IMG/VR virus record: IMGVR_UViG_3300020448_000039
Span: 1 to 24,022 of that record
DNA from: a virus
Length of the DNA: 24,022 bases
Direction: 5' to 3' (one strand)
Shown here: in pieces, positions 1 through 15,985 of the stretch
Position numbering within the stretch: the stretch's first letter is position 1
Layout of the letters: the number at the start of each line of letters is the position of its first letter
Program-made: the position numbers and the translations under genes
The notes under the pieces: model-generated
Told to the model about the DNA's origin: nothing
The model's input: the letters and a program-made list of their open reading frames with translations, nothing else
The model's database searches: none

Positions 1-1750
1 ATTCTTAGATTCAGCAACTGTTCGTGAAAATGTTGTATCATTAGCTAGAAATATAGGTTATGTACCTAGATCGAGAACTGCTGCTCAAGCAACTGTTTCT
101 TTTAATGTCACTACTGCAAGCAATACACCAACACTTACTCTTCAGGCAGGTCTAGTATGTGTGGGGACATCAGATAACTCATCTTATGTTTTCTCTATTC
201 CAGAAACGATTACAACTGTTACAACACAACAAACTGATGCAAGTGGTAATATAATAAGTAGTACAGGTTCATTTAACAACATAGTTGTATATCAAGGAAC
301 TTATTTAACAAAATCATTTACAGTTGATGGATCTCTTGATCAAAGATTCATACTTGAAAATTCATTTATTGATACTTCAACCATTAAGGTTTATATTAAA
401 GGGTCATCTGATACTGGTTTAGGAAAAGAATATCGCAAAGTTGATAATATATTGAATATTACTGATATATCAGAAACGTATCTTATACAAGAAATAACCG
501 ATGAAAGATATGAACTTCTTTTTGGTGATGGTGTATTTGGTAAAAAATTAGAAAATGATTCGATAATTACTGTTTCTTATATCACCACAGATGGTGTAGA
601 TGGTAACGGTCCTGCTTCTTTTACCTATGCAGGTAGTGTTGTATCATCCACTAATCAAATTTCTTTACCAACAATCACTCCAACCATCACAACGGAATCA
701 GCGGCAGCTAATGGAGGTAATATTGAGTCAATTGATTCTATTAAGTATTTTGCACCTAGACTCTATTCTTCACAGTATAGAGCAGTTACAGCAAGGGATT
801 ATGAGTCAGTTATACAACAAATATATCCAAACACTGAATCAGTATCGGTTGTAGGAGGAGAAGAATTAGATCCTCCAGAGTTTGGAACAGTTTTTATAAC
901 AATCAAACCAAAAAATGGTGAATTTGTATCTGATTTTGATAAACGTGCAATATTATCAAGTTTAAAAGGATATTCACTTGCTGGTATAAATCAAAAAATA
1001 CTTGATTTAAAGTTATTATACGTTGAAATTGAATCTTTTGTATATTATGATGTATCTAAAGTAACAACTGTTTCAGAATTAAAGACAAGTGTAACGAATG
1101 GATTATTGACTTATGGTTCAACAACAGATATTAACAAATTTGGTGGAAGATTTAAATATAGTAAAGTTTTAAATGTTATTGATAATATAGACGATGCTAT
1201 TACATCTAATATAACAAGGGTTATTATAAGAAGAAATTTAAGGGCACTTACTAATCAGTTTGCACAGTATGAACTTTGCTATGGAAACAGATTCCATATC
1301 AATCCAGAGGGTAAAAACATAAAGAGCACTGGTTTTACCATTCAGGGTCAAACTGACATGGTATATTTTACCGATATTCCAAATAAGAGTAATGATGGAA
1401 CTTTAGATGGAAGTGGTAAAGGTGTTATCGCAATAGTTAAAGGTGATGCAGAATTATCTCAAGGTCAATTAGTTGTTGCATCTGCAGGGATCGTTGATTA
1501 TGTTCATGGTGAGGTTATAATTTCAACTGTTAATATTACTTCGACACAAAGATCAAATAATATTATTGAAATTCAAGCATTTCCTGAGTCGAATGATATT
1601 ATTGGGTTAAAAGATTTATATTTGAGTTTTGCTGTTGGAGATAGCTCTATAAATATGGTTAAAGACACAATTACGTCTGGAGAGCAGATATCAGGTGTCG
1701 GTTATAAAGTCACATCAAGTTATACAAACGGAGCTTTGGTAAGAGGATAG
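1..1750 (+). CDS. gp6: Baseplate wedge protein gp6 (baseplate J-like), 5' partial
   Basis: This is the 3' part of the T4 gene 6 homologue; gp6 forms the inner ring of the baseplate wedge. The frame is open from base 2 to the TAG at 1748-1750, giving about 582 visible residues against roughly 660 in T4 gp6, so only a short N-terminal piece is missing. The first visible residues, LDSATVRENVVSLARNIGY, followed by VPRSRTAAQA, are the conserved gp6 segment. Further on are FGDGVFGKK (about 520-546), GGNIESIDSIKYFAPR (about 715-762) and an AVTARDYESV stretch (about 783-812), which are hallmarks of baseplate J/gp6 proteins. The GTG at 161 is internal and is not the start. The stop is followed after one base by the ATG of the giant gene, so the two are probably co-translated. 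An exact TATAAATA lies inside its 3' end. Family assignment is secure; the true start is outside the window. Confidence 0.93.
   Translation, partial: FLDSATVRENVVSLARNIGYVPRSRTAAQATVSFNVTTASNTPTLTLQAGLVCVGTSDNSSYVFSIPETITTVTTQQTDASGNIISSTGSFNNIVVYQGTYLTKSFTVDGSLDQRFILENSFIDTSTIKVYIKGSSDTGLGKEYRKVDNILNITDISETYLIQEITDERYELLFGDGVFGKKLENDSIITVSYITTDGVDGNGPASFTYAGSVVSSTNQISLPTITPTITTESAAANGGNIESIDSIKYFAPRLYSSQYRAVTARDYESVIQQIYPNTESVSVVGGEELDPPEFGTVFITIKPKNGEFVSDFDKRAILSSLKGYSLAGINQKILDLKLLYVEIESFVYYDVSKVTTVSELKTSVTNGLLTYGSTTDINKFGGRFKYSKVLNVIDNIDDAITSNITRVIIRRNLRALTNQFAQYELCYGNRFHINPEGKNIKSTGFTIQGQTDMVYFTDIPNKSNDGTLDGSGKGVIAIVKGDAELSQGQLVVASAGIVDYVHGEVIISTVNITSTQRSNNIIEIQAFPESNDIIGLKDLYLSFAVGDSSINMVKDTITSGEQISGVGYKVTSSYTNGALVRG
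1648..1655 (+). promoter_or_regulatory. Candidate T4-type late promoter inside the end of gene 6
   Basis: An exact TATAAATA, the T4 late promoter -10 element recognised by gp55-programmed RNA polymerase, lies about 100 bases before the giant gene start. It sits within coding sequence (Ser-Ile-Asn-Met), so chance is possible in such AT-rich DNA. Only three exact copies were seen on the + strand, each near a gene start, which raises its credibility. Confidence 0.4.
1741..1746 (+). promoter_or_regulatory. Ribosome binding site of the giant gene
   Basis: AAGAGG at the very end of gene 6 ends five bases before the ATG at 1752. It supports that start codon even though the two genes are separated by one base only. 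Confidence 0.6.
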
Positions 1751-1751
1751 T

Positions 1752-4700
1752 ATGATAACTACTGGAATTGATAAAAGAGTCAAAGTCCAACAGATAATTG
1801 AAAACCAAATACCAGAGTTTTTATTATCTGAAAGTCCAAAGGCAGTAGATTTCTTAAAACAGTACTATATCTCTCAGGAATATCAGGGAGGTCCTATTGA
1901 CCTGACTGATAATTTAGATCAGTATATAAAATTAGATAATTTAACACCAGAAGTAGTTGTAGGAGAGACAAAATTAACAAGTGGTATTACAACCACTGCA
2001 ACAACCGTAAATGTTAGTAGTACCAAGGGATTTCCTAAAGAATATGGTCTTTTTAAAATTGAAAACGAGGTAATAACTTATACAGGTATCACCACTAATA
2101 GTTTTACTGGATGTATTCGTGGTTTTAGCGGTATAACAACTTATCATGCACCTAATAATCCGACAGAATTAGTATTTACTAATTCATCGGCAATAAATCA
2201 TGATAATGATGCTACAGTCATAAATTTAAGTGCTTTATTTTTAAAAGAATTTTACAAAAAAACAAAAAAACTACTTACACCTGGTTTAGAAAACTCAAAA
2301 TTTGTTAATAATCTTGATGTAAGTAATTTTATTAAAAATTCTAAATCTCTCTATCAATCAAAAGGCACAGAGGAGTCATTTAGAATTTTATTTAATGTTT
2401 TATACAATGAAACACCTAAAATTGTTGATTTAGAGCAATATTTAATAAAACCGTCATCTGCAGAGTATATACGTAGAGAGATTATCCTTGCAGAAGCTAT
2501 ATCAGGAAATCCAGCAAATTTAGTTGGACAAACAATAATTAAATCGACTGATAGTGCAACAAGAGCATCAATTTCCGAAGTTGAACCACTTACAAGAAAA
2601 GGTAAGGTATATTATAAAATTGGTTTGTTTGTTGGATTCAATGATGTTGACCTAATAGAAGGAACTTTTAATATTCCTGGTAAAACGAAGGTTATTGGTG
2701 ATGTTGCGATTGGATCCTCTGTTATAACAGTTGATTCAACAGTTGGTTTTGGTGCTACAGGTACTTTAGTATCTGGAATGAATACAAATATTTACTATAA
2801 TAGTAAATCTGTCAATCAGTTTTTTGAATGTGAAAATATTGTTGGAATAATATCTACAACTAATGACGTTAGATCAGATGAATTTTATTTTGGATATGAA
2901 GGTGGAGATTTAAGTAAAAAAGTTGAATTAAGATTAACTGGTGTTCTATCAAAATTTGTTCCAACAACAGATATTCGTCTTTTAACAGAAGGTGAAAAAA
3001 TAACTGTTAGAAATGTTGGTGAGAAAATACTAAATCCAACTGAAAATAAGTCTAGAAAACAAATATTCGCAAATTCATGGATATACAATACATCTTCCAG
3101 ATTTTTAATTGAAAATATATCAGGATCTAATGTAGTTTTATTCACAGATGATATTGATAAATCTAGTTTAAAAGTTGGAGATAATATAGAAATTTTATTC
3201 AGAAATGAAGAAACAAAAGTTGCGACTGGTATAGTTGCAAACATTGATAAACCAACTAAAACAATATCTCTTAATAATTTAATTAATCAACCAAATATAA
3301 CACTATTACCAGACCCTAATCGTGAATATGATTTGAGAAGAGTTATAAATCGTGCTTCAACAACAATTGCTGATATAGATTTTGGTCAAAATATATTAAC
3401 ATCAGATATAACAAATGTATATAATGATTCTGATGTGGATTTTTATGTAGCATCCAATTCATTACCATCCTATCAAATAACTGCTTCTTTACCTAAATCC
3501 ATTTTACCTCAAGCAGGAGCAGGAGTTGAATTACCACAATCTGGTTACGATCCAAACACACTTAAATATAATATTTTATCTTTTCCAAATCCTGTTCCAT
3601 TTATAACTGGAGATGAAATATTTTACACAGCACAAGGAACTGTATTGCCAGGTTTACCAGAGGGTAATTATTTTGTTGAAGTTTTATCGAATGCAAACCA
3701 GATAAGATTATATCTATCTCGTTCATTCATACCCATTGCTGATTACGAAGAGTTTGAGTCATTACCTGCAGGATCTGGAACTCATACTTTTTCATTAGTT
3801 GGAACTGTTGAGCAACAAGTTGCAGCACAAAAATTACTTAAAAAGTTTCCATTAAATCCGAGTATAACTAACTCTTCTAATGTAAAAACTACACCAGGCA
3901 CAACTGGCATGTTGATAAATGGTGTTGAGATAAGAAATTATAAATCAGACGATAAAATATTTTTTGGACCTTTAGAAGATGTAAAGATATTAAATGGTGG
4001 TTCAAATTATGATGTAATAACACCACCAATTATTAGTTTATCAGGACCTGGTGCTGGTAGTACCACATCTTTAATTAGACCTGTTATTACTGGTACAGTT
4101 GTTGATGTTCAGGTAGATCCACAAGATTTTGATATACAAAAAGTTGTTTCAGTAACGATAGAGGGTGGAAATGGAAGTGGAGCAATATTAGAACCAATAT
4201 TATCTGAGAGAAAAAGAGAAATTACCTTTGATGCTAGATTATTGACAGAATCTGGTGGTGTAGATAATGTAAATGAAACCATTACATTTCAAGACAGACA
4301 TAATATCGTAAGTGGTCAACCTTTAGTTTATGATCGTAATAATAATCCACCTTTAGGTATTGGAACAGTAGGAAATGATGCAGGTACTTCAATTGTAGGA
4401 GTTGGTACTACAACTCTTGTAAATGCTGCAACATACTATCCTGAAGTTGTAAATACAAGCACAATAAAACTATTCCAAACATTATCAGACTATAACTCTG
4501 GTATTAATACGGTTGGATTTACTACAACTAATAAAATTGGAATACATAAATTTAAATTATTCAATAATGAAAAAACTCTAAAAGATATAAGAGTTATTGA
4601 TGGAGGAACTGGATATGAAAATAGACAAGTATTTGTTAAACCAACAGGAATTAATACTATAACAAATACAATTCATTTCGATGATCATGGATTTAATAAT

Positions 4701-7700
4701 GGTGATAGAGTTGTATATTCTACAGCAGTTGGTATTGGATCAACTTTACCAACAACTATCTCAGGATTATCCACATCTACAGGTATCACTACAACTTCAA
4801 ATTTTTATCATATTCTTAAAATAAATGATGATTCATTTAGATTAACAAATGCTGGTCTTGGTGGAACTATAACAACTGAGTTTGATAGAAAAGATTATAT
4901 TAAGTTTACTGACCAAGGCACTGGATTTCAAGTATTTAAATATCCAGACGTTAAGTTAAATTTAAAATATGAATTAGCAAATACTTCAGTTGGAATAATA
5001 ACAGCTACACCAGTTGTAAGAGGTCCTATAACTGATGTATTATTATATGAAAAAGGTTCAGGATATGGATCTAACATTTTAAATTTAGAAAAATCAATAA
5101 CTGTATCTGTAAAAACAGGTAAAGAAGCAGAGTTAAAACCGATTATAACAGACGGTAAAATAAGTTATGTAGAAATACAAACAAAGGGTAGAGAATACTC
5201 CTCTGCACCTGATTTAGAGGTCGTAGGAATAGGAACTGGACTCGGTGCAAAACTTAGGGCAGTTGTAACAGATGGAAAAATCACAGATGTAATAATTTTA
5301 GAGGGTGGACTGCAATATCAACAAGATAAAATTAATATTAAAGTTATCCCACCAGGTTCTGGAACAAAATTAGACGTTAGTACTAAAGGTCTTACTGTTA
5401 ATACATTTGCAAGATATGGTAATGAAGCATTAATTGAAACGAATAATAAATTAGAATATTCTATTGTAGGATATTCAACTCAAATAGGTAATGATTCTTT
5501 TGGTGATACTGGAAGTGGACACTCACCTATAATAGGTTGGGCTTATGATGGAAATCCAATTTATGGTCCTTATGGTTATAGTGACCCAACTGATGATAAT
5601 TCTCCTGTTAGAATATTAAATTCTGGTTATGTTTTAGATCCAGATAATGTAGTTGATAGACCATTTGGTTTTAGTAATGGATTTTTTGTTGAAGATTACA
5701 GATTTACTAATGCAGGTGATTTAGATGAACATAATGGTAGATATGGCAGAACACCTGAATATCCAAATGGAACTTATGCATATTTTGTAGGTATAGCAAC
5801 TAATTCATTACTACCAGTTTTCCCTTACTTCATAGGTGATACTTATAGAACAGATCCATCAACAGAAAACTTTAATATAAACCAGACAACTTTTGATTTT
5901 GATAATTCAAGTTTAATAAGAAATAGCTATCCATATAAAGTATCTGATCAATTTGCAGATAATGATTTTATTATTGAATCAAATGAAATAACATCTCAAT
6001 CAACTATTGTTGAATCAACTACTTCAGGTTCTATAAACTCTATTGATATTATTAATGTTGGTGATAACTATGAAGTTGGAGACTCTGCTGTATTTGATAA
6101 TACAAATACGAATGGTGGTGGATTGAGTGTATCAGTAAATAGTGTATCTGGAAAAGAAATAACTTCGATTGACACTACAGTTGATACTTTTGAAAACACA
6201 GTATTTGTTTGGAGAGACCCATCTCATATCTCAGCATATATTTCTACTGCTCCTGATTTAAATGGTGGTGATAATGTTGTAATATCAGGACTGAGCACTA
6301 CTTCAATAGAGGGTTTAACTGGTTCTCATGTAATTGGAATTGATACAGGACACACAGTTGTTTATCAAGAAATTCCAAACACATCTACAACTGGTGTCGT
6401 AACTGATATCTACGTTACCTCTATACCTGAAAACATTTCTGTTGGTAGTAGTATAGGAATCGGAACAGAAAAATTATTAGTTTTAAATACTTTTAATCAA
6501 AATAATATTTTAAGAGTTAAAAGAGGTTCTGTCGCAGGAGTTCATACTGTTTCTACACAAGTTTCTTTAATACCAAATTTCTTTAATATTCCATTAAGAA
6601 CAAATGTATTTGACTCTAGTGTAAAAGATCAAGTATTTTTCAATCCACATGAATCAGTAGGAGTTGGTACAGTTGTCGGATTAGGTTCAACTTCAACATC
6701 AACTTTAGGTGATTTAATAAGTGTCGTTCCCACACCAACTCACAGTATTTTCTTACCAAATCATCCTTTTAAAACTAATCAAAGAGTAACACTAACTAAA
6801 CCAGCTGCTGGTTATGGTTTAACTGTATCTAAAGATGATGGTGTTACTACATTTACAATACCAAAATCTGGTAACACTGAGGATGTTTTCATAATTAAAA
6901 AATCGAAAGATTATGTTGGTATCGTAACTCAAGTTGGATTAACGACAAGTTCTGTTGGTCTCGCATTTGTGGGAGATAGTAAAGTTGGTTCAAGTAGTTT
7001 TGAATACTTATTTGAATCAAATCCAACTCAGGTAACTGGTAAACTACAGAGAATAAATGCTGTTGTTTCAGTTTCAACATCTCATAATTTAGTGGATACA
7101 GATGTTATTAATTTAACAGTTAATCCTAATCAATCTGTTGGTATTGGAACTTCAACAAAAATAGATTTAAGATTTGATTCAAACACTCAAACCCTTTTAA
7201 TAAATCCAATTACAATTTCTTCTAGTGGGGTAACAACTGCTTCTAATAACTTTAATTTAACTGAACATAATTTAGAGACAGGTGATAAAGTTCAGTATAT
7301 TTCAACATCAGTTACAGAGGGATTATCAAATCAAGAATCATATTATGTGTATAAAGTTGATGATAATAATTTTAAACTTGGAGAAACATATTCTGATGTA
7401 ACAAGTAGTCCCATTAATATAATTGAACTTAGTTCAACTGGTGGTGCGACTGGAAGTAATCATGAATTTTCATTAATTAATCCACCAATATCTGTGCTGA
7501 GAGATAATAATTTAGTGTTTGGTGTCGGTCATACATCATTAGCTGGTTATGATTTTAACATTTATTATGATAAAGATTATAAAAACGAATTTGTATCTGT
7601 TGGAAATACAAACAATTTACAAGTAACTGGTGTTGGAACGGTTGGTGTCACATCAACTGCAACCGTAACACTTGGATATTCTCCTGATAATCCATCTAAT

Positions 7701-10700
7701 TTATTCTATAATATTAAAAAGTCAGGTTTTATAAGCACATCCGATACTGATGTAATTAATTACACAAAAATACATTACTTAAATAGTAAATATAGTGGTC
7801 AATATCCAATATTTAATGTACCACCAGTTGTTGGTGCATCATATACAAGTTTCAGTATAGCACTCCCAGAGGTTCCAGAAAAATTATCTTATGCCTCAAC
7901 TGAAACTAGTGTGCTTAAATACTCTACAAAATCACCTAGAGCTAAGGGTGCTGTAAACACTGTAAATATTAATTTTGGTGGAGTAGGATATGATAGTTTA
8001 CCATCATTTGTAAGTATTGCATCTACTCAAGGAGTTAATGCAACTTTACTTCCAGATTCAACCACAATAAACAGAGTTGATGATGTTAGAATACTAAATC
8101 CAGGTTTTGAATATTCATCAGATCCAACTTTGAAACCAGAGGCATTTGTTTCCCCTGTCATCACAGTAATTAATTCAAATACTATTTCAAATATAGAGGT
8201 AATTGATGGTGGTCGTAATTATACAACATTACCAGATTTAGTAATTGTAAATCCTATAACTGGTCTAGAAGATATATCAGGCGCAATTATTGGTGCGAGT
8301 ATAACTGGAAGTTCATTAAGTGATGTTAAAATTATAGTAGAACCAAAAGGATTACAGTCAATTACTCATGAAATATTTGCAATAAACAATAGTAATGGTT
8401 CAACAGTAAGTCAATTACAATACAATCCATCAACAGGTATTGCTACTTGTACACTCGTAACACCTGTATTAGGATTTTCAACAGCACCATTTAATATTAA
8501 TGAAGAAATATATGTTGAGGGTTTACAACAGTATACGGATAGTACACTAACTGGTGGTGATGGATTTAATTCAGCAGATAATGGTTTTAAATTCTTTAAA
8601 GTTAGTGCTGTAACAAATTCAAATCCCGCAACAATCGAGTTTAATTTAAATTCTGTTACAACTAATCCTGGTGTTGCGAAGACCTCTCAAAATTCATTTG
8701 GTGTTATTATTAGTAAAGGTGATTATCCTAAATTTAAAGTTACTCAAAAAGTTTCAAACTTTAGTATTGGTGAAAAATTACTAGCATTTGTAGGTTCCTC
8801 ATATGTTCCTGTTGAATTAAAAATATCAGAAGCAACTAATGAGTTTATTAAGATTGAAGAAATAGTTCCTGGTGCATTTAATCTTAATTCTGGACAATTA
8901 ATAAAAGGATTTGTAACTGGTAATGTTGCTACTGTAAATACAATATCAAAAAATACAGGTTTATTTGAAATCAGTTATTCATTACGTCAAGATCAAGGTT
9001 GGATTGATAATATTGGAAAACTAAATCAAGATTACCAAGTTACACCTGACAATGATTATTATCAAAATCTATCCTATAGTGTTAAGAGTTCAATTACATA
9101 TGATAATTTAATTAATCCTGTTAATAGATTACTTCATACAAGTGGGTTGAAAAATTTTGCTGACGTTGGTATATCGTCAGTTACAAGTGCAGGTATTACA
9201 ACATCAAGTTTCTTAGATACTCTTGCATTAGACTTTATTGATCAAAAACGAGTTGACACTATTAACAATTTTGATTTTGCATTAGATATTGACACCGTTA
9301 CAGGAAAATCTAAATTCTTAAAATTAAAAAATACAAAACTATCACCATATCTTGAATGTAGAACAAATCGTGTTTTAGAAATTGATGATATAAGTGGTTT
9401 ATTCTCTAATACTGCTTCAACACTATCACAATTCCTAGATTTATCAATTAATACTCGTTATGCAACATTTTTAATTCAAGTTAGAGATCCAAATACTGGT
9501 AATGTTCAAATATCAGATATAATATTATATAAAGATGATGAGGATGTGTTCACAGCAGAAAGAGCTAAGATTCATACCACAGAATCTGAATTGGGTGAGA
9601 TAGTTGCTGAAATAGATTCATCACAAGATATCAGTCTTAAATTTACACCAGATGATCCAGATAATAATGATTATGATCTTAAAATTCTTGAAACATCATT
9701 CAATACTAATTTAACTGGTATCGGAACTCAGTCCATCGGATTTATTAATTTATCTGGAATTAATACAACTGTTTCTACAGCAACAACTTCAAATATAATA
9801 TCCACAAATATTGTAAACACAGATGCTTTCTTTGCATCAGTTGAAGTAAATAATGTCACCACAGATCAAACAAATTTTGTTGATTTATATTTAACTCATG
9901 ACGGAACAAACACCTTCATGTCTGAATTTTATGCAGATACTGAGGATGGTCCAACCTCCAATTTCATAGGAACATTTATATCAAATATAGATTCTGGTGT
10001 CTTATCTCTTCAATTTGAAAATGATCAACCAAATGAGGTTTTAGTTAGATCAAGAATTATCGGTATAGGAACAACTGCATCTGGTATAAGCACTTATAGA
10101 TTCCAGTTACCTGGTCAGCTCGATGGCACAGAAAGAACTGTTAAATTTGAATCAAATTTCTCAAATGTTTCTACTTCATCTACCATAGCATCATTTACAG
10201 AAAATCAAATATCATCCTTAAAAGGTTTTGTAAGAGTATCAAGTGGTTCAACGAGTGCTCTTCACCAAGTTCTTGTTGCTCATGATTCAACTGATTCTCA
10301 CATAACTCAATATCCATTCTTATCAATTGGAAGTACATCTGGTATTGGTACTTTCTCATCAACAATAGTTGGTAACGATTTAAATCTCAATTTCCACCCT
10401 GATCCATTATATACTGGTGGAACAAATAGTGTTCAAGTACAAATCTTTACTGAGTCTTTCTATACAGATATTGACTTATTAAATTTACCACTTGACTTAC
10501 AATATGGTACAGTAACTGAGTCACTCTCACTAGCTCAATATGATGCTATAAACGGTAATAGATCAAATAAAACAAGTTTTGCTCTTCAAAGTGGAACTAG
10601 ACCAATATTCCAAAAACAATTTAATCCATCAGACGGAGCAACTTTAGATGCATCAACAGGAATATTCACTATAGTAGATCATTTCTTTGAAACTGGTGAA

Positions 10701-13700
10701 AGATTAATTTATACACCTGGTTCTACATTTACAGGTATTTCATTATCTGGAATAGCAACTGCTGGAGGCACATTAGGTTCAGAAGTTTATGCAATAAGAT
10801 TAAGTAAAGATACATTCAAAATATCAAAATCACATCCTGATGCATTAGCTGGGATTGCAGTCACATTCACGGGAACTGGAACTGGTAATGCACATGAGTT
10901 TGAAATGTTTAAGAAGAATGAAAAAGCATTACTATCAATAGATGGTGTCATTCAATCTCCCATGGCATTTACCCCTATAACTACAGATTTAGGTATCACA
11001 ATTACTGATAGCACCACTACATTTAGTGTTACAGGAATATCATCAATAACATCTAATGATATTATCAAGATAGATGATGAGTTTATGAAGATAACAAATG
11101 TAGGTTTGGGCACCACTACATCAGGACCTATTTCTGAATCTGGATCTGTTAGTTTAGTTGTTGTTGAGAGAGGTGCAATCGGAACTGCTGCTACTGGTCA
11201 TAGTGCAGGTGCAACAAGTAGATTGTTCTCAGGTGGTTATAATATTGTTGATAGTACAATTCATTTCACAGATCCACCAAGAGGAACTAACTCAACACAA
11301 AAAACACCAGCTAATTTAGACCCTGTTCGTTCTAAGTTTAATGGGCGTGTATATTTAAGACAAGACTATAGCACCAACACAATATTTGATGATATATCAG
11401 ATAGTTTTACAGGTATAGGTGCTACACTTCCTGTTAAAGTTGGTGGAGCAAGCACTGCAGGTATACAAACTGGAAGTACAATATTATTATTAAATGGAAT
11501 ATTCCAAACACCATCTACATTTAATAACTTAGGAAATAATTATGAATTTGTAGAAACAGGTGGTGAAAGTAATGTTGTATTTACAGGTATTACATCATCT
11601 AATGGAACAAAAATAATAAGTGATGTTGACGTTAATCAAAACCAATTACCAAGAGGTGGTGTAATTGTTTCATTAGGTTCAACAGGTGGATTAGGAGTTG
11701 CTAATTTAGCACCAGCAAAAGTAAAAGCAACAACTAATGGAAGTGGAGCTATAGTCGGCATTGTTGGTCTCTCAACAACTGGTGGTTCATTTGGTATAAG
11801 CACCGCATCATTTAATAATTCAACTGGTCAACTTGAAATTACTACATCATCAAATCATGGATTTAGAAATATAAATGAGTTTGTGAGATTAGATGGTTTA
11901 ACATTTAATCCAACATTAAGCATTCCAAATGATAGATCATTTAGTGTAACTGGTATATTATCGGCAACTACATTCACTACTAATGTAGGTACAAGCACTG
12001 TAACTCATGCATACGTTGGTTCTGGCACTGCGTTTGAATATCTTGCTGACTTAACTTTTGGTTCTGGATATCGTAATCCAGTTTCTGTTGCTGTAACTGA
12101 TTTATCTGGTAATGGTTCAAGTGCAGACATTTCTGCAGAAGTTGTCTCTAATACTCATGTCTTCATAAGTGCGTCAACTAATGCTGTCACTGTTACTGGA
12201 GGATCTCCTATTACTCCTACAGGTGCGACATATGATCCAGCAACTGGAAATTTAGTAATTACTAAAGCATCTCATGGTTTAACCACAAGTAACACAGTTG
12301 GTCTTGCAACAAATTCATTTGTATTCAGATGTGCACAGGATAATTTCTCTACTGATCATGCATATCCACGTTCTGGTTCTACCCCAAGTTCAGCAGGAGG
12401 AGATCCTGCACATAATGCTACTTTAGCAATCACTGCAACAACAACCAATACATTCACTGTAAATGTTGGTATCACAAACACAGGTACAGGTGGTGCTCTT
12501 AAATTTACAATTAATAATGCTGGAACTGGTTACACTCAACCTCAAATTCAAGTCTCTGCTCCATCTTATGCTAATTTACCAATAACTGGTGTATCAAGAA
12601 GAGGTATTGGTTCTACCACAGATACAGGAACTGGAGTATCACTAACAATTGAAGTAGGAGCTGCTAATACAACAGTTGGTTTAGGTTCTACATCATATGA
12701 AGTAACTAATTTCCAATTAGAAAATCCTGGTTATAATTTTAAAGTTGGTGATGTATTTAAACCTGTAGGATTGGTAACTGATAGATTTTTAAATACATCT
12801 TCACTTATTAGTGATTTTGAATTAACAGTTCTTGATGTATTCAGAGATCAATATTCATCTTGGAATTTTGGAGAGTTTGATTATATTGATTCTATCAAAG
12901 ATCTTCAAGATGGAACTAGAGTAAGATTCCCATTATTATTCAATGCAAATCTTCTTAGTTTTGAAGTTGATGAAGATAGACCTGATTCATCACTTATTGA
13001 TCTTGACGCTTTATTACTCATATTCATTAATGGTGTAGTTCAAGATCCTGGTGATGCTTACACTTTTGAAGGAGGTACCTCATTTGAATTTTCTCAAGCA
13101 CCAGATCCAGAAGATATTATTGATATATTCTTCTACAAAGGAACAAGTGGTGTAGATACTGTTCAAGTTGCAGCAGGTTCATCTGTGTCACCAACTATAA
13201 AAACTGGTGATATTTTACAAGTATATAAAAATAATTTCGTTGTTGACCAAACTCAGTCAACAAGAACAATATATGCGATATCAGCATCTGATGAAGTAGA
13301 AACCAATCTTTATACTCAACAAGGTATTGATGAAACAACATTTAAACCATTCAGTTGGACAAAACAGAAAGTAGATAAAAAAGTGAATGGTGAAATTGTA
13401 TTCAAAACAAGAGATTCAATTGAATCACAAGTTTATCCAACTGCAAGAATAATTGATGATATAACAACAACTGGCACTGAATTATATGTTGACAATGCAA
13501 AATTCTTTAATTATGAAGAAGACTTCTCAAGTTTAGTAGTAGGTAGTGTTGGTGGACTAATTGTTGGTTCAACTAATCCTGTTGCAGCAGGTTTTACTGC
13601 AGTTGTATCTGCAGCTGGAACGATTTCATCACTTTCGATTACAAATGGTGGAAGTGGTTATGATGGTTCAGCAATTACTGTTTCTATATCTGCTCCTCAT

Positions 13701-14390
13701 GCAATTGGTGTTGGTGTAGGCACAACTGCAACTGCAACTGCGTCCATAACAAACGGTGTTGTAACTGGAACAACAATTACAAATCCTGGTTTTGGTTACA
13801 CATTTACTGCTATTCCTCAAGTTTTGGCACCACTACCAAATGCTATCAAGGAGGACATTGACACTATCACAACAGTTGAGGGATTTGATGGTGATATAAT
13901 TGGAATAGGTGTTACAGATGGTATAGGGCATCCACTTGCACTTAAATTTACTTTAAGTGCTGATTTAACAAATAATCCTAATTCAACATTAAGTGATTTA
14001 AAAGTGGGTTATCCTATATACATATTTGAGACACAAGTTGGTCATGGAGTTACATCAGTTGTAAGTGATAACGGAACAGTCGTTGCGACTGGTACAACAT
14101 GTGTTGATAATATCTACTTTGTTAATGCATTTAATGCAGGTGTTGGTATTATTACATGTAATATAATGACTGGTGTAAATACAACAGGTATTGATACTTC
14201 AGTTGGACTTGGAACTGCTATTGGTGGATTCTCTTGGGGTAGACTCTCAGGATTCACTAGAGGAGCAAATCCAATTTCAATAGGAGTAACTGGATTAACT
14301 ATAGACTCTGGTTTAACGACTTACCCATCCATCCAGAGAAGAGATTTCGGTCTTAGGGACAATGGTTCATTAAGAAAGGATCTTGGGTAG
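1752..14390 (+). CDS. gp7: Giant gp7-like baseplate wedge protein with YHYH domain and repeat modules
   Basis: This single ORF of 4212 residues (about 450 kDa estimated) lies between genes 6 and 8, where T4 has gene 7 (1032 residues). Residues ~20-280 carry motifs of the C-terminal part of T4 gp7: IPEFLLSES near residue 20, SKGTEESFRILFNVLYNE at 203-220 (T4: STKGIEASYKFLFKVLYNEE) and NLVGQTI at 256-262 (T4: DLVGQTI). The rest is Thr/Ser/Gly/Asn-rich, with no signal peptide or evident membrane segment. It has at least twelve GG-x-GY units, several His/Gly-Asp units, three NGVxQxP units and many short G-I/V/L-G-T/S stretches. A YHYH domain lies near residues 1245-1365. The C-terminus, with YPSIQRRDFGLRD, looks like a conserved anchor. 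It probably acts as wedge initiator and builds extra peripheral baseplate mass. The gp7 role is inferred from synteny and the N-terminal motifs; the function of the remaining ~3900 residues is unknown. Confidence 0.8.
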   Translation: MITTGIDKRVKVQQIIENQIPEFLLSESPKAVDFLKQYYISQEYQGGPIDLTDNLDQYIKLDNLTPEVVVGETKLTSGITTTATTVNVSSTKGFPKEYGLFKIENEVITYTGITTNSFTGCIRGFSGITTYHAPNNPTELVFTNSSAINHDNDATVINLSALFLKEFYKKTKKLLTPGLENSKFVNNLDVSNFIKNSKSLYQSKGTEESFRILFNVLYNETPKIVDLEQYLIKPSSAEYIRREIILAEAISGNPANLVGQTIIKSTDSATRASISEVEPLTRKGKVYYKIGLFVGFNDVDLIEGTFNIPGKTKVIGDVAIGSSVITVDSTVGFGATGTLVSGMNTNIYYNSKSVNQFFECENIVGIISTTNDVRSDEFYFGYEGGDLSKKVELRLTGVLSKFVPTTDIRLLTEGEKITVRNVGEKILNPTENKSRKQIFANSWIYNTSSRFLIENISGSNVVLFTDDIDKSSLKVGDNIEILFRNEETKVATGIVANIDKPTKTISLNNLINQPNITLLPDPNREYDLRRVINRASTTIADIDFGQNILTSDITNVYNDSDVDFYVASNSLPSYQITASLPKSILPQAGAGVELPQSGYDPNTLKYNILSFPNPVPFITGDEIFYTAQGTVLPGLPEGNYFVEVLSNANQIRLYLSRSFIPIADYEEFESLPAGSGTHTFSLVGTVEQQVAAQKLLKKFPLNPSITNSSNVKTTPGTTGMLINGVEIRNYKSDDKIFFGPLEDVKILNGGSNYDVITPPIISLSGPGAGSTTSLIRPVITGTVVDVQVDPQDFDIQKVVSVTIEGGNGSGAILEPILSERKREITFDARLLTESGGVDNVNETITFQDRHNIVSGQPLVYDRNNNPPLGIGTVGNDAGTSIVGVGTTTLVNAATYYPEVVNTSTIKLFQTLSDYNSGINTVGFTTTNKIGIHKFKLFNNEKTLKDIRVIDGGTGYENRQVFVKPTGINTITNTIHFDDHGFNNGDRVVYSTAVGIGSTLPTTISGLSTSTGITTTSNFYHILKINDDSFRLTNAGLGGTITTEFDRKDYIKFTDQGTGFQVFKYPDVKLNLKYELANTSVGIITATPVVRGPITDVLLYEKGSGYGSNILNLEKSITVSVKTGKEAELKPIITDGKISYVEIQTKGREYSSAPDLEVVGIGTGLGAKLRAVVTDGKITDVIILEGGLQYQQDKINIKVIPPGSGTKLDVSTKGLTVNTFARYGNEALIETNNKLEYSIVGYSTQIGNDSFGDTGSGHSPIIGWAYDGNPIYGPYGYSDPTDDNSPVRILNSGYVLDPDNVVDRPFGFSNGFFVEDYRFTNAGDLDEHNGRYGRTPEYPNGTYAYFVGIATNSLLPVFPYFIGDTYRTDPSTENFNINQTTFDFDNSSLIRNSYPYKVSDQFADNDFIIESNEITSQSTIVESTTSGSINSIDIINVGDNYEVGDSAVFDNTNTNGGGLSVSVNSVSGKEITSIDTTVDTFENTVFVWRDPSHISAYISTAPDLNGGDNVVISGLSTTSIEGLTGSHVIGIDTGHTVVYQEIPNTSTTGVVTDIYVTSIPENISVGSSIGIGTEKLLVLNTFNQNNILRVKRGSVAGVHTVSTQVSLIPNFFNIPLRTNVFDSSVKDQVFFNPHESVGVGTVVGLGSTSTSTLGDLISVVPTPTHSIFLPNHPFKTNQRVTLTKPAAGYGLTVSKDDGVTTFTIPKSGNTEDVFIIKKSKDYVGIVTQVGLTTSSVGLAFVGDSKVGSSSFEYLFESNPTQVTGKLQRINAVVSVSTSHNLVDTDVINLTVNPNQSVGIGTSTKIDLRFDSNTQTLLINPITISSSGVTTASNNFNLTEHNLETGDKVQYISTSVTEGLSNQESYYVYKVDDNNFKLGETYSDVTSSPINIIELSSTGGATGSNHEFSLINPPISVLRDNNLVFGVGHTSLAGYDFNIYYDKDYKNEFVSVGNTNNLQVTGVGTVGVTSTATVTLGYSPDNPSNLFYNIKKSGFISTSDTDVINYTKIHYLNSKYSGQYPIFNVPPVVGASYTSFSIALPEVPEKLSYASTETSVLKYSTKSPRAKGAVNTVNINFGGVGYDSLPSFVSIASTQGVNATLLPDSTTINRVDDVRILNPGFEYSSDPTLKPEAFVSPVITVINSNTISNIEVIDGGRNYTTLPDLVIVNPITGLEDISGAIIGASITGSSLSDVKIIVEPKGLQSITHEIFAINNSNGSTVSQLQYNPSTGIATCTLVTPVLGFSTAPFNINEEIYVEGLQQYTDSTLTGGDGFNSADNGFKFFKVSAVTNSNPATIEFNLNSVTTNPGVAKTSQNSFGVIISKGDYPKFKVTQKVSNFSIGEKLLAFVGSSYVPVELKISEATNEFIKIEEIVPGAFNLNSGQLIKGFVTGNVATVNTISKNTGLFEISYSLRQDQGWIDNIGKLNQDYQVTPDNDYYQNLSYSVKSSITYDNLINPVNRLLHTSGLKNFADVGISSVTSAGITTSSFLDTLALDFIDQKRVDTINNFDFALDIDTVTGKSKFLKLKNTKLSPYLECRTNRVLEIDDISGLFSNTASTLSQFLDLSINTRYATFLIQVRDPNTGNVQISDIILYKDDEDVFTAERAKIHTTESELGEIVAEIDSSQDISLKFTPDDPDNNDYDLKILETSFNTNLTGIGTQSIGFINLSGINTTVSTATTSNIISTNIVNTDAFFASVEVNNVTTDQTNFVDLYLTHDGTNTFMSEFYADTEDGPTSNFIGTFISNIDSGVLSLQFENDQPNEVLVRSRIIGIGTTASGISTYRFQLPGQLDGTERTVKFESNFSNVSTSSTIASFTENQISSLKGFVRVSSGSTSALHQVLVAHDSTDSHITQYPFLSIGSTSGIGTFSSTIVGNDLNLNFHPDPLYTGGTNSVQVQIFTESFYTDIDLLNLPLDLQYGTVTESLSLAQYDAINGNRSNKTSFALQSGTRPIFQKQFNPSDGATLDASTGIFTIVDHFFETGERLIYTPGSTFTGISLSGIATAGGTLGSEVYAIRLSKDTFKISKSHPDALAGIAVTFTGTGTGNAHEFEMFKKNEKALLSIDGVIQSPMAFTPITTDLGITITDSTTTFSVTGISSITSNDIIKIDDEFMKITNVGLGTTTSGPISESGSVSLVVVERGAIGTAATGHSAGATSRLFSGGYNIVDSTIHFTDPPRGTNSTQKTPANLDPVRSKFNGRVYLRQDYSTNTIFDDISDSFTGIGATLPVKVGGASTAGIQTGSTILLLNGIFQTPSTFNNLGNNYEFVETGGESNVVFTGITSSNGTKIISDVDVNQNQLPRGGVIVSLGSTGGLGVANLAPAKVKATTNGSGAIVGIVGLSTTGGSFGISTASFNNSTGQLEITTSSNHGFRNINEFVRLDGLTFNPTLSIPNDRSFSVTGILSATTFTTNVGTSTVTHAYVGSGTAFEYLADLTFGSGYRNPVSVAVTDLSGNGSSADISAEVVSNTHVFISASTNAVTVTGGSPITPTGATYDPATGNLVITKASHGLTTSNTVGLATNSFVFRCAQDNFSTDHAYPRSGSTPSSAGGDPAHNATLAITATTTNTFTVNVGITNTGTGGALKFTINNAGTGYTQPQIQVSAPSYANLPITGVSRRGIGSTTDTGTGVSLTIEVGAANTTVGLGSTSYEVTNFQLENPGYNFKVGDVFKPVGLVTDRFLNTSSLISDFELTVLDVFRDQYSSWNFGEFDYIDSIKDLQDGTRVRFPLLFNANLLSFEVDEDRPDSSLIDLDALLLIFINGVVQDPGDAYTFEGGTSFEFSQAPDPEDIIDIFFYKGTSGVDTVQVAAGSSVSPTIKTGDILQVYKNNFVVDQTQSTRTIYAISASDEVETNLYTQQGIDETTFKPFSWTKQKVDKKVNGEIVFKTRDSIESQVYPTARIIDDITTTGTELYVDNAKFFNYEEDFSSLVVGSVGGLIVGSTNPVAAGFTAVVSAAGTISSLSITNGGSGYDGSAITVSISAPHAIGVGVGTTATATASITNGVVTGTTITNPGFGYTFTAIPQVLAPLPNAIKEDIDTITTVEGFDGDIIGIGVTDGIGHPLALKFTLSADLTNNPNSTLSDLKVGYPIYIFETQVGHGVTSVVSDNGTVVATGTTCVDNIYFVNAFNAGVGIITCNIMTGVNTTGIDTSVGLGTAIGGFSWGRLSGFTRGANPISIGVTGLTIDSGLTTYPSIQRRDFGLRDNGSLRKDLG
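1812..2595 (+). other. gp7-homologous region (N-terminal ~280 residues)
   Basis: This segment holds all the gp7 similarity I can recognise. It begins with IPEFLLSESPKAVDFLKQYY (T4 counterpart around LLQDSNFEAFCEAYIQYL) and continues through FLKEFYKKTK, SKGTEESFRILFNVLYNE and NLVGQTI to SISEVEP. In T4 gp7 the corresponding block lies in the C-terminal third; here it begins almost at residue 20. It is interrupted at residues ~73-133 by an Arg-Gly type module absent from T4 gp7. The comparison is from memory of the T4 protein, not a computed alignment. Confidence 0.7.
1968..2153 (+). repeat. Arg-Gly 'EVITYTG...IRG' module, copy 1
   Basis: Residues ~73-133 of the giant protein read, in outline, TTATTVNVSSTKGFP, then IENEVITYTGI, FTGCIRGFSG and a His. 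Related copies lie at about 6390-6560 (IGTEKLLVLN, VKRGSVAGVH), at 10980-11230 (IDDEFMKITN, VERGAIGTAATGH) and in the DUF4815 protein near 21835-22030 (INSEIIYYDS, GTRGVDGT, TH). The shared plan is a beta strand, an acidic 'E-x-I/M' strand, an R-G-turn and a His. Confidence 0.6.
3981..4065 (+). repeat. GG-x-Y beta module, first copy
   Basis: VKILNGGSNYDVITPPIISL near residue 744 starts a series of units with the plan I-x-[ND]-GG-x-x-Y-x(4-6)-P-x-[IV]-x-[IVL]. A second copy with VIDGGTGYENRQVFVKP lies at about 4584-4650. The units are diverged in DNA sequence, so they are old duplications or independent acquisitions rather than recent tandem copies. Confidence 0.65.
4269..4872 (+). repeat. Two His/Gly-Asp modules in tandem
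   Basis: The two modules run from ITFQDRHNIVSGQPLVYD (about 4278) to IHKFKLF and from IHFDDHGFNNGDRVVYS (about 4668) to DDSFRLTNAGLGG. The shared plan is a strand, then H-x(3)-x-G-[DQ]-x-[VL]-x-Y, a Gly/Thr-rich stretch and an F-[KR]-L strand. Other clear copies are at 7246-7400 (LTEHNLETGDKVQYIS, NNFKLGE) and 10663-10840 (IVDHFFETGERLIYTP, DTFKISKS). Weaker copies are near 6741, 11828 and 12253. Confidence 0.55.
5034..5364 (+). repeat. Cluster of three GG-x-Y beta modules
   Basis: Three units follow each other: YEKGSGYGSNIL, then VEIQTKGREYSSAPDLEV, then VIILEGGLQYQQDKINIKV. They are linked by a repeated connector containing ITDGKISY and VTDGKITD. The near-identity of the connectors suggests this block arose by local duplication. 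Confidence 0.65.
5487..5850 (+). other. YHYH domain within the giant protein
   Basis: Residues ~1246-1366 contain SPIIGWAYDGNPIYGPYGY, followed about 75 residues later by LDEHNGRYGRTPEYPNGTYA and YFVG. This pair is the hallmark of the YHYH family (Pfam PF14240), found in secreted or surface proteins of bacteria and in virion proteins of marine phages. Its function is not established. It is the only recognisable globular domain in the repetitive part of this protein and could be an adhesin or binding module exposed on the baseplate. Confidence 0.8.
7953..8259 (+). repeat. Cluster of three GG-x-Y beta modules
   Basis: The units are INFGGVGYDSLPSFVSI (about 7965), VRILNPGFEYSSDPTLKPEA (about 8085) and IEVIDGGRNYTTLPDLVIV (about 8193). 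They have the same plan as the cluster near 5034-5364, including an aromatic residue after the glycine and a Pro six or seven residues later. Confidence 0.6.
10927..11595 (+). repeat. NGVxQxP modules, copies 1 and 2
   Basis: LLSIDGVIQSPMAFTP (about 10930) and LLLNGIFQTPSTF (about 11485), the latter followed by YEFVETGGESNVVFTGI, share a plan with LIFINGVVQDPGDAYTFEGG at about 13018, which is followed by TSFEFSQAP. In all three a hydrophobic strand leads to N/D-G-[VI]-x-Q-x-P, and copies 2 and 3 end in a GG-x-S turn and an F-rich strand. The first copy also precedes an Arg-Gly module. Confidence 0.5.
12840..13165 (+). other. Conserved non-repetitive module near the C-terminus of the giant protein
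   Basis: Residues ~3697-3805 are more acidic and aromatic than their surroundings (FRDQYSSWNFGEFDYIDSIK, then DGTRVRFPLLFN, LIFINGVVQDPGDAY, IDIFFYKGTSGVD). It is the third copy of the NGVxQxP unit within a longer, apparently single-copy domain. I recognise no catalytic motif. Confidence 0.45.
13623..13848 (+). repeat. Last pair of GG-x-Y beta modules in the giant protein
   Basis: LSITNGGSGYDGSAITVSI (residue ~3960) and TTITNPGFGYTFTAIPQVLA (residue ~4005) are the closest to the consensus. Three further single units lie upstream at about 12039 (FGSGYRNPVSVAV), 12498 (INNAGTGYTQPQIQV) and 12705 (LENPGYNFKVGDVF). Confidence 0.65.
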
Positions 14391-14416: not shown

Positions 14417-15985
14417 ATGGCTGCTATTGTAACAGATCAATTTAGAATTCTAAATGCAAATAATTTTGTAGACACAGTAGATAATTCTGCAAACTCATAT
14501 TATGTTGTGGTTGGTCTCGCTAATCCAGCACTTTCTGTTGGTTTTGGAAGAACAACTACTTGGAATACAAATACACCAAACCCAACTGATAATATCAACT
14601 ATATGAATCACACTGGTGATACTCAGATATTTGGTAAAAAGGTCACAAGTGCGAACGTAAGAAGGTTAATAACAAGAAGAAACTGGACACAAGGAACAAG
14701 ATATGAAATGTATCGTCATGATTACAGTGTAACAAGTCCATCTCCCATAACAAACTCAACCAGATTATATGCTGCGAACTATTATGTAATGAATAAAAAC
14801 TTTGATGTTTATATTTGTATTGATAATGGTTCTTCTGGAATTAGCACAACTGGTAATGCATCACAGGATGAGCCACTATTCACAGACCTTGAACCCACAA
14901 GAGCAGGTGAAAGTGGTGATGGATATATTTGGAAATATCTTTTTACAGTGCCTCCAAGTGATATAATTAAATTTGATTCAACAGAGTATATTTCAGTTCC
15001 TGGTGGTTGGCCAACTTCATCAGAAACTCAAATACAATCTGTTAGAGAAAACGGTGATTCGACCATCAATAATAATCAAATTAAAAAAGTTTATATAGAT
15101 AAGCAAGGATTTGGTTATTCTCAAAATATTGTAGGTCGAGAGGTTGATATAATTGGAGATGGCACAGGTGCTAAAGTTGTTATTGATACTGATAGCAACG
15201 GAAAGATAACAAAAACAAACGTATCTTCAGGTGGGCAAGGTTACACTTATGGTATGGTTGATTTAGGTCCTCTTGGTAATTCTGGAGTATCAGTGGGTAA
15301 CTTTGCGAAACTTATACCAATTATTCCTCCTTCAAGAGGGCATGGATTTGATTTATATAAAGAGTTAGGAACTGATAAACTTTTAATTTATGCGAGATTT
15401 GATGATTCAACAAAGGACTTTCCAACTGATACTAAATTTGCACAAATTAGTATCATAAAAAATCCAACCTCAATCGGTTCAACTGCAACATACACGGCTA
15501 ATGATTTCTCATCAGTAAATGCAATTAAAGTTGTATCTCCTACAGGAACTCCAACTATTGGTGAAAAAATTCAACAGTCAGTAACTGGAGGAACTGCTGA
15601 AGGTTACATAGTTTCATATGATACTGATACTAATGTTATTAAATATTATAACGATAGATCATTATACTTTAATCAAACAACATCTGATCAAACAGATTAT
15701 GTTGGTGTAACCACAGAGGCAAAAGTTTTAGACTTTGAATCTTCTGCAGAAAGTATAATTGCACCAACAAGTGGATTTACTGCTACAGTAGACCAGAATT
15801 TCACTGGTATAAGCACAAATCCCACAGGAAACAAAGTTATTTCTCTAGGAGTTAACTTTACAAATGGTCTTGCATCTCCTGAGATAAATAAAGGGTCAGG
15901 TGAAATAATCTACCTAGATAATAGACCACTAGTTACTAGAAACTCTAGACAAAAAGAAGACATTAAAATCATCTTGGAATTCTAA
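14417..15985 (+). CDS. gp8: Baseplate wedge protein gp8, enlarged
   Basis: This is the homologue of T4 gp8, the wedge subunit that joins gp7 and gp10 in T4. It has 522 residues against 334 in T4. Landmarks match along the chain: AIVTDQFR at the N-terminus (T4 AIVTSKFR), RRNWTQGTRY near residue 87 (T4 RRDWGDTRY), GDGYIWKYLFTVPPSD near 167 (T4 GDGYVWEYLFEIPP), EYISVP near 194 and a C-terminus with SGEIIYLDNRPLV (T4 SGEMIYMENRPPI). The extra length lies mainly at residues ~222-290, which hold two GG-x-Y modules of the kind found in the giant protein, and at ~360-475. The start is supported by the N-terminal match, although no strong Shine-Dalgarno is visible. The stop is followed after three bases by the next ATG. 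Confidence 0.93.
   Translation: MAAIVTDQFRILNANNFVDTVDNSANSYYVVVGLANPALSVGFGRTTTWNTNTPNPTDNINYMNHTGDTQIFGKKVTSANVRRLITRRNWTQGTRYEMYRHDYSVTSPSPITNSTRLYAANYYVMNKNFDVYICIDNGSSGISTTGNASQDEPLFTDLEPTRAGESGDGYIWKYLFTVPPSDIIKFDSTEYISVPGGWPTSSETQIQSVRENGDSTINNNQIKKVYIDKQGFGYSQNIVGREVDIIGDGTGAKVVIDTDSNGKITKTNVSSGGQGYTYGMVDLGPLGNSGVSVGNFAKLIPIIPPSRGHGFDLYKELGTDKLLIYARFDDSTKDFPTDTKFAQISIIKNPTSIGSTATYTANDFSSVNAIKVVSPTGTPTIGEKIQQSVTGGTAEGYIVSYDTDTNVIKYYNDRSLYFNQTTSDQTDYVGVTTEAKVLDFESSAESIIAPTSGFTATVDQNFTGISTNPTGNKVISLGVNFTNGLASPEINKGSGEIIYLDNRPLVTRNSRQKEDIKIILEF
15083..15285 (+). repeat. GG-x-Y beta modules inserted in gp8
   Basis: Two units, VYIDKQGFGYSQNIVGREV and VSSGGQGYTYGMVDLG, are joined by a connector ending DSNGKITKT. 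Unit and connector match the plan seen in the giant gp7-like protein (for example VTDGKITD near 5280). The T4 gp8 I remember has nothing here, so this looks like an insertion between conserved gp8 segments. Confidence 0.65.

Follow-up and report, generated by a model that had tools for sequence, protein, structure and literature searches.

A giant gp7-type baseplate wedge protein with an apparently split core in a T4-like, probably marine cyanobacterial, virus

The virus fragment analysed here (IMG/VR record IMGVR_UViG_3300020448_000039, positions 1 to 24,022; 24 kb, hereafter the window) carries a giant gene whose product is, judging from sequence comparisons, an orthologue in the wide sense of the T4 baseplate wedge protein gp7. 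The gp7 core of this protein appears to be split, with about 2,050 residues between its parts and a further ~1,720 behind it, as suggested by profile alignments and by the predicted structure of a compact relative. The literature, as judged largely by titles and abstracts, yielded no description of marine phages in which the gp7 core is split.

The gene occupies positions 1752-14390 of the plus strand, on which all of its features given below also lie, as a single open reading frame (ORF) with an ATG start, 4212 residues (predicted mass 450.9 kDa) and zero internal stops. It takes up 12,639 of the 24,022 bases, or 53% of the window, bearing out a first-pass annotation that had described one uninterrupted ORF between genes 6 and 8 filling more than half of the DNA. 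Pfam and PHROG matches identified the flanking genes: upstream lies the baseplate wedge gene gp6 (2-1750, plus strand; phrog_219, E = 6e-164), whose 5' end is cut by the end of the record, and downstream, after only 26 bases, the baseplate wedge gene gp8 (14417-15985, plus strand; PF09215, E = 2.7e-15; phrog_438, E = 1e-151), giving the order gp6-gp7-gp8. The giant protein itself matched phrog_2885 ('baseplate wedge subunit') with 3634 bits, the best stretch aligning residues 2-3339 with profile positions 2-3327 of 4179. An assembly artefact as the source of the long frame was rejected, because 15 of the 17 IMG/VR contigs that cover both gene ends contain one closed gp7 frame of 4087-4212 residues; of the remaining two, one has a frame that runs off the available sequence and the other (L030/L205) has a gap between two pieces. 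Across these 15 contigs, the median dN/dS was 0.07-0.16 in each of nine segments of the gene, values that are rough since the median dS of 0.7-1.06 is near 1 and partly saturated.

Giant versions of gp7 were already known, and the window protein belongs to this known kind. A tblastn search with residues 1-350 retrieved 467 phage records at E ≤ 1e-5, 456 of which bear the name Synechococcus, Prochlorococcus or cyanophage; going by its relatives, the virus is T4-like, related to marine cyanobacterial phages and probably a marine cyanophage itself. The gene that follows gp6 encodes 874 residues in Mosig, 896 in Melnitz, 1915 in S-B68, 3495 in ACG-2014e, 3895 in S-SRM01, 4120 in S-SCSM1, 4212 in the window, 4454 in P-HM2, 4749 in S-T4, 5195 in P-SSM2, 6167 in S-CAM8 (annotated ends and open frame) and 6619 in S-SZBM1, and 1032 in T4. 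The fourfold excess over T4 that had been pointed out earlier is real, yet it is ordinary for a family that ranges from 874 to 6619 residues among 12 marine proteins.

The P-SSM2 protein (AAX44489.1), which is annotated as gp7 and as a baseplate wedge initiator and whose gene is likewise flanked by gp6 and gp8, shares its three core blocks and three module families with the window protein, exceeds it by 1,000 residues and is 31-64% identical to it in aligned 100-residue steps. The 6619-residue protein of S-SZBM1, whose gene contains all three core blocks, was detected in CsCl-purified particles with 71 peptides, 13.5% coverage and an emPAI of 0.41, according to the available text of PMC9146016. 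The compact gp7 proteins of Mosig and Melnitz, from pelagi- and methylophages, have the same blocks as the window protein, but only about 310-330 residues from the beta match to the gamma match, with two or three GGxGY modules ahead of gamma; HGF and RGFSG modules were not found in them by module profile scan. Shorter predicted relatives were present in a structure library, with 482 residues in Acidovorax phage ACP17 (Foldseek E = 1.3e-15) and 523 in Pseudomonas phage pf16. The gp7 gene of S-SKS1 is broken into several ORFs in its record (L002, 20001-32387), the first of them unannotated, with alpha and beta in an ORF of 710 residues and gamma in a separate one of 1113, reflecting either a real split or a sequencing error. 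IMG/VR contig 2974739009 (L086, L087) contains two full-length T4-type gp7 matches, with starts about 13.5 kb apart.

Several comparisons link the N-terminal part of the giant protein to T4 gp7. In pairwise BLASTP, residues 1-350 matched T4 gp7 at E = 4e-6 (193-290 to 727-811), and the motifs SKGTEESFRILFNVLYNE and NLVGQTI, which begin at residues 203 and 256, have their counterparts in TKGIEASYKFLFKVLYNE at 737 and DLVGQTI at 780 of the 1032 T4 residues. The N-terminal profile aligned with T4 gp7 by hhalign at E = 6.5e-9 (probability 95.8%), scoring 78.3 as compared to at best 24.8 in 30 column shuffles, and smaller alignments, which share rows with the larger one, gave E = 1e-8. A search of PDB sequences with this profile found two sequences at E ≤ 1 (2e-4 and 3e-4), both gp7, and a search of the T4 genome found a single match, again gp7 (E = 1.3e-6). 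The KGT block (T4 ~727-760) was recovered in the window protein by BLASTP, hhalign and the PDB profile search alike. In the reverse direction, the T4 gp7 profile matched the giant gene alone in P-SSM2, S-SCSM1, S-SKS1 and S-CAM8, with no match in the other 7 of the 11 marine phage records. No second gp7 was found when these 11 records were searched whole in both profile directions: the extra matches of the N-terminal profile in relatives cover just a recurring module (profile positions 58-133), except for further pieces of the gp7 ORF itself in S-CAM8 and Mosig. S-SZBM1, which is outside the 11 records, has a second gene annotated as 'baseplate wedge initiator' (205), and none of the three blocks was found in it. 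The gp7 orthology proposed in the first-pass annotation is thus upheld by BLASTP, hhalign, PDB and reciprocal profile matches; the T4 motifs do fall within the first 280 residues here and within the last third of T4 gp7, and the absence of a separate gp7 elsewhere holds in the relatives, that is, in the 11 marine records, the window record being a fragment.

The likeness to T4 gp7 has clear bounds. The T4 Pfam domains fn3, helical, V and VI are unmatched by the window protein, and the T4 N-terminal domains, which had been described as lost, are indeed undetectable in it. Pfam Gp7_helical, Gp7_5th and Gp7_6th had no match in the window protein at E ≤ 1, and phrog_964 (T4-type gp7) had none at E ≤ 0.1, whereas T4 gp7 itself matches all four; the protein is therefore not filed under the narrow T4-type gp7 family. 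Whole compact relatives matched T4 gp7 at just E = 0.04 (probability 1.3%), the compact-family profile found nothing among PDB sequences at E ≤ 1, and the full-length window protein gave one match to solved structures, at E = 0.39, which is not meaningful. The T4-like alignment set comprised 22 of 27 loci plus T4 (L109 was dropped for a stop; L087, L089, L090 and L111 were unused) and alignment A4 comprised 18 loci plus T4, while 60 of 80 loci were translated for the compact set and 41 of these 60 aligned. S-CAM8 was covered to residue 5493 of 6167, and its row in alignment A1 ends before its true block beta (652-750) and is thus misaligned past alpha.

Three blocks of the gp7 core could be delimited in the window protein. 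Block alpha (residues 5-62; 1764-1937), a putative core-bundle helical hairpin, has a weak match to T4 645-676. Block beta, with SKGTEESFRILFNVLYNE (residues 155-262; 2214-2537), is equivalent to about T4 gp7 710-787, and the first part of the domain V equivalent, with NLVGQTI, covers about residues 235-330 (2454-2741; boundary approximate). Block gamma, DYYQNLSYSVK...HTSGLKNFADVGI (residues 2391-2484; 8922-9203), is equivalent to T4 gp7 862-904. In T4 gp7 (1032 aa; PDB 5iv5, 5hx2) the same order is seen for beta, gamma and the domain V fold, the last as suggested by a model of a compact relative rather than of the window protein itself, but the beta and gamma matches are spaced by ~75 residues in T4 and by ~2,100 in the window protein. 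All 27 marine-type gp7 proteins scanned (12 named or from the window, 15 from contigs) have alpha, beta and gamma in this order; as 26 of the 27 had supplied rows to the block profiles, S-SZBM1 is the sole outside test, and it matched the three blocks at E = 7.9e-21, 1.3e-26 and 1.0e-27, respectively. A further beta match, weaker than the first, is seen in S-CAM8 at 143-255. In T4 gp7, the block scan detected beta (2.2e-8) followed, as in the marine proteins, by gamma (1.5e-3), and the alpha HMM had no match; a tile over alpha was colinear with T4 but weak (E = 0.012, score 25.0), and the model of the compact relative contains low-confidence helices at 2-15 and 25-38 (hairpin, T4 643-689).

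Because the third block lies at residues 2391-2484, the added mass would consist of two pieces, an insert in the core and a C-terminal extension. The view of the first-pass annotation, in which the core was shifted to the N-terminus and an extension of ~3900 residues added behind it, is not supported; of the vast modular tail described there, the very large added mass stands, whereas the single tail gives way to two separate pieces.

Gamma, which corresponds to residues 583-674 of the 874-residue Mosig protein, has a single good copy in every one of the 12 marine records searched, each time in the gp7 gene, using a profile that contains no rows from S-SKS1 or S-SZBM1; S-SRM01 shows an additional spurious match (0.023) with stops inside. 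Aligned with T4 gp7 by hhalign, gamma gave E = 2e-4, 3.1e-5 with more rows and 2.7e-5 with a hand-picked set (alignment A6, 17 rows), three tests that share rows and are therefore not independent, and every match falls within T4 862-904. The real scores of 35.7 and 40.7 compare to best shuffled scores of 19.3 (30 shuffles) and 30.4 (100 shuffles). Against the T4 genome, gp7 was the sole match of the gamma profile, at the same place (E = 0.0026); against PDB sequences gp7 was again best, at just E = 0.24, with an unrelated sequence next at 0.31. When 52 compact-family tiles were compared to T4, the 12 best scores fell at T4 645-676, 733-790 and 862-917, colinear with the tiles, and 733-790 alone of the three places scores well by itself; the tiles over gamma reached 23-24 (E about 0.02), under the best large-profile shuffle of 30.4.

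A structure model of the compact relative L123 (875 residues, 41-row alignment) had a mean pLDDT of 62.9, with values below 50 at residues 608-687, which contain gamma. The two best Foldseek matches of this model in the PDB were 9f4a_A0 (9.8e-6) and 5iv5_BJ (1.5e-3), which we took as gp7 chains from entry and length; the PDB profile search names gp7 in both entries. Global TM-scores were about 0.1. Using VIA, three chains likewise taken as gp7 matched the model with Z = 10.8, 10.6 and 8.6 over 93, 93 and 78 residues, the next-best match having Z = 7.0. The matched stretch pairs chain residues 763-855 with model residues 244-616, so that domain V appears on both sides of the L123 insert and, in this model, appears to be interrupted by about 280 residues; VIA reports just the first and last aligned residue, which places the insert no finer than within domain V. 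By homology of the flanking blocks, the equivalent gap in the window protein would be about 2,050 residues. The VIA list also has translation-factor and related barrels (Z 5-7, mostly model residues 40-156), which we took to reflect a common barrel arrangement. A C-terminal model, built from 31 of 80 loci plus the window, had a pLDDT of 50.2, and its fold search gave no match at E ≤ 0.001.

An arrangement in which the whole gp7 core is N-terminal and the other ~3900 residues form one C-terminal tail would fit the position of the strongest T4 similarity (residues 190-292) and the weakness of the gamma match to T4 in some of the tests. We nevertheless regard it as rather unlikely, given that gamma is colinear with T4 862-904 and is found as a single good copy in the gp7 gene of every marine record, that S-B68 terminates shortly after gamma, and that, in the model of the compact relative, parts of domain V appear to flank the insert. 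The large size of the chain and the separate genes found between gp7 and gp8 in some relatives could also point to a polyprotein, from which insert and extension would be released for use elsewhere while the core stays in the wedge. One frame is kept, however, in the 15 readable contigs, and with gamma located after the insert, cutting would break the core chain; we consider such processing quite improbable.

It has also been proposed that gp7 is absent from both marine groups and replaced by VrlC (PMC7029224, in its available text), and an older comparison, as far as its text is available, places gp7 among the non-cyanophage core genes (PMC3037559); the giant protein would then be an unrelated virion protein. 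In the window, a VrlC-type protein (DUF4815, 2353 aa; BLASTP 3e-64 to VrlC of phage Mosig) is encoded by a separate gene at 15989-23050 and has no real match to T4 gp7, its candidacy as gp7 having been rejected at a best E of 0.49. By contrast, the giant gene and T4 gp7 match each other reciprocally, and the gene position and the PDB search point the same way, so that a loss of gp7 seems highly improbable. Judging from the gp7 blocks present in both groups, the published absence of gp7 in marine phages is not supported.

The insert within the core would cover about residues 331-2380 (2742-8891, approximate and inferred boundaries), and the C-terminal extension about residues 2485-4212 (9204-14387), in which indels between close relatives of the window protein concentrate at residues 3401-3600. 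The expansions vary independently, as the S-B68 protein combines an insert of about 1,550 residues with an end just 11 residues past its gamma match, without an extension, and S-SZBM1 and S-CAM8 have about 500 additional residues between alpha and beta. Self-BLAST of the giant protein gave no matches, and its repeated modules were mapped by profile tiles. RGFSG modules lie at residues 73-129 (1968-2138), as an insertion between alpha and beta, and at 312-368 (2685-2855), at the near edge of the insert; the module recurs in other genes of relatives and in the VrlC-type neighbour, which has one copy at its residues 1946-2006. Seven copies of the GGxGY module are located at residues 739-794 (3966-4133), 1091-1143, 1135-1189, 1426-1478, 2066-2121, 2143-2202 and 3956-4016, and six copies of the HGF module at residues 841-910 (4272-4481), 971-1034, 1663-1726, 1831-1879, 2969-3027 and 3067-3117. 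The gp8 protein (14417-15985) also has a GGxGY module, at its residues 220-276, of the family found in the giant gp7. Residues 1255-1351 (5514-5804) match the YHYH family (PF14240, profile 91-185 of 193; E = 5.1e-26), and this stretch had no match among solved structures. It contains YAYF at residue 1342, near what we take to be the position of the name-giving YHYH tetrapeptide. The domain in the window protein is possibly a non-catalytic version of its family, whose members are predicted metal-dependent hydrolases (PMC7824862, in its available text).

Building on the orthology, the order of the three blocks and the continuous frame, we consider it probable that the window protein is a wedge gp7 with a three-block core in T4 order and two expansions that form built-in arms. 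The giant gene would thereby encode the gp7 subunit of a (gp6)2-gp7 baseplate wedge, with a wedge-forming core comprising the helical hairpin (5-62), a stretch that holds the KGT block and the beginning of domain V (155-330), and the HxxG block (2391-2484); its place in the wedge would be that of the T4 core. The first expansion, a ~2,050-residue chain with many small repeated modules, would leave the core within the domain V equivalent or directly behind it, and the C-terminal extension of about 1,720 residues would form the second. We infer that each gp7 carries two long modular arms outward, which may stand in for the N-terminal arm of T4 that is lost here and for at least some of the outer ring that T4 has (gp9-gp12). 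Such arms would probably give stability to the rim of the baseplate and make contacts with the host or carry them, and surface contact might be passed through them into the core to trigger contraction. With the six copies of gp7 given for the T4 baseplate in the available text of PMC3004832, there would be twelve arms per baseplate.

A comparable layout may be seen in Vibrio phage XM1, whose gp17, a gp7 orthologue of 242 aa, has an N-terminal core-bundle helix-turn-helix and holds one spike at a core-domain loop and another at its C-terminus (PMC10457771, in its available text). This protein is tiny and the spikes are separate proteins; it is likened to the window protein by analogy only, and on that analogy the two spike-binding places of XM1 may be equated with the two gp7 expansions.

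As for the outer ring, in none of the 12 marine records did T4 gp11 give a match above the cut-off; one match below it was seen in S-SRM01 (E = 0.03). The gp9/gp10 N-domain (PF07880) was not found in 7 of these 12 records and was matched in the other five. In S-CAM8, Mosig and Melnitz the match falls in the gene that directly follows gp7, and in S-SCSM1 and S-SZBM1 in the one after that; Mosig has one more match elsewhere. In several relatives, genes intervening between gp7 and gp8 gave weak PF07880 matches (L117, 16090-17829; L116, 16709-17593; L118, 21084-21863; L280, 16110-17606). Since five of the 12 marine records keep a gp9/gp10-like N-domain, the T4 outer ring is not always replaced, and replacement fits P-SSM2, S-SRM01, S-T4 and S-SKS1, the nearer kin of the window virus, better than these five. 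The proposal that a single polypeptide combines wedge core and built-in outer baseplate, with six copies providing twelve independently growing arms in place of the T4 adaptor and short-fibre proteins, is a tentative one, possible but in our estimate doubtful.

For T4-like marine phages, the comparisons and the compact model together suggest an identity for the giant gene between gp6 and gp8, in which gp7 would be split and not missing. The three-block signature should be usable for finding gp7 in other phages, and a split core predicts the points at which the additional mass has to emerge from the baseplate. If the tentative proposal of a built-in outer baseplate is true, the arms would account for protein lengths of up to 6,600 residues in some phages, and their two points of growth would be the same as the spike attachment sites of the simple phage XM1.
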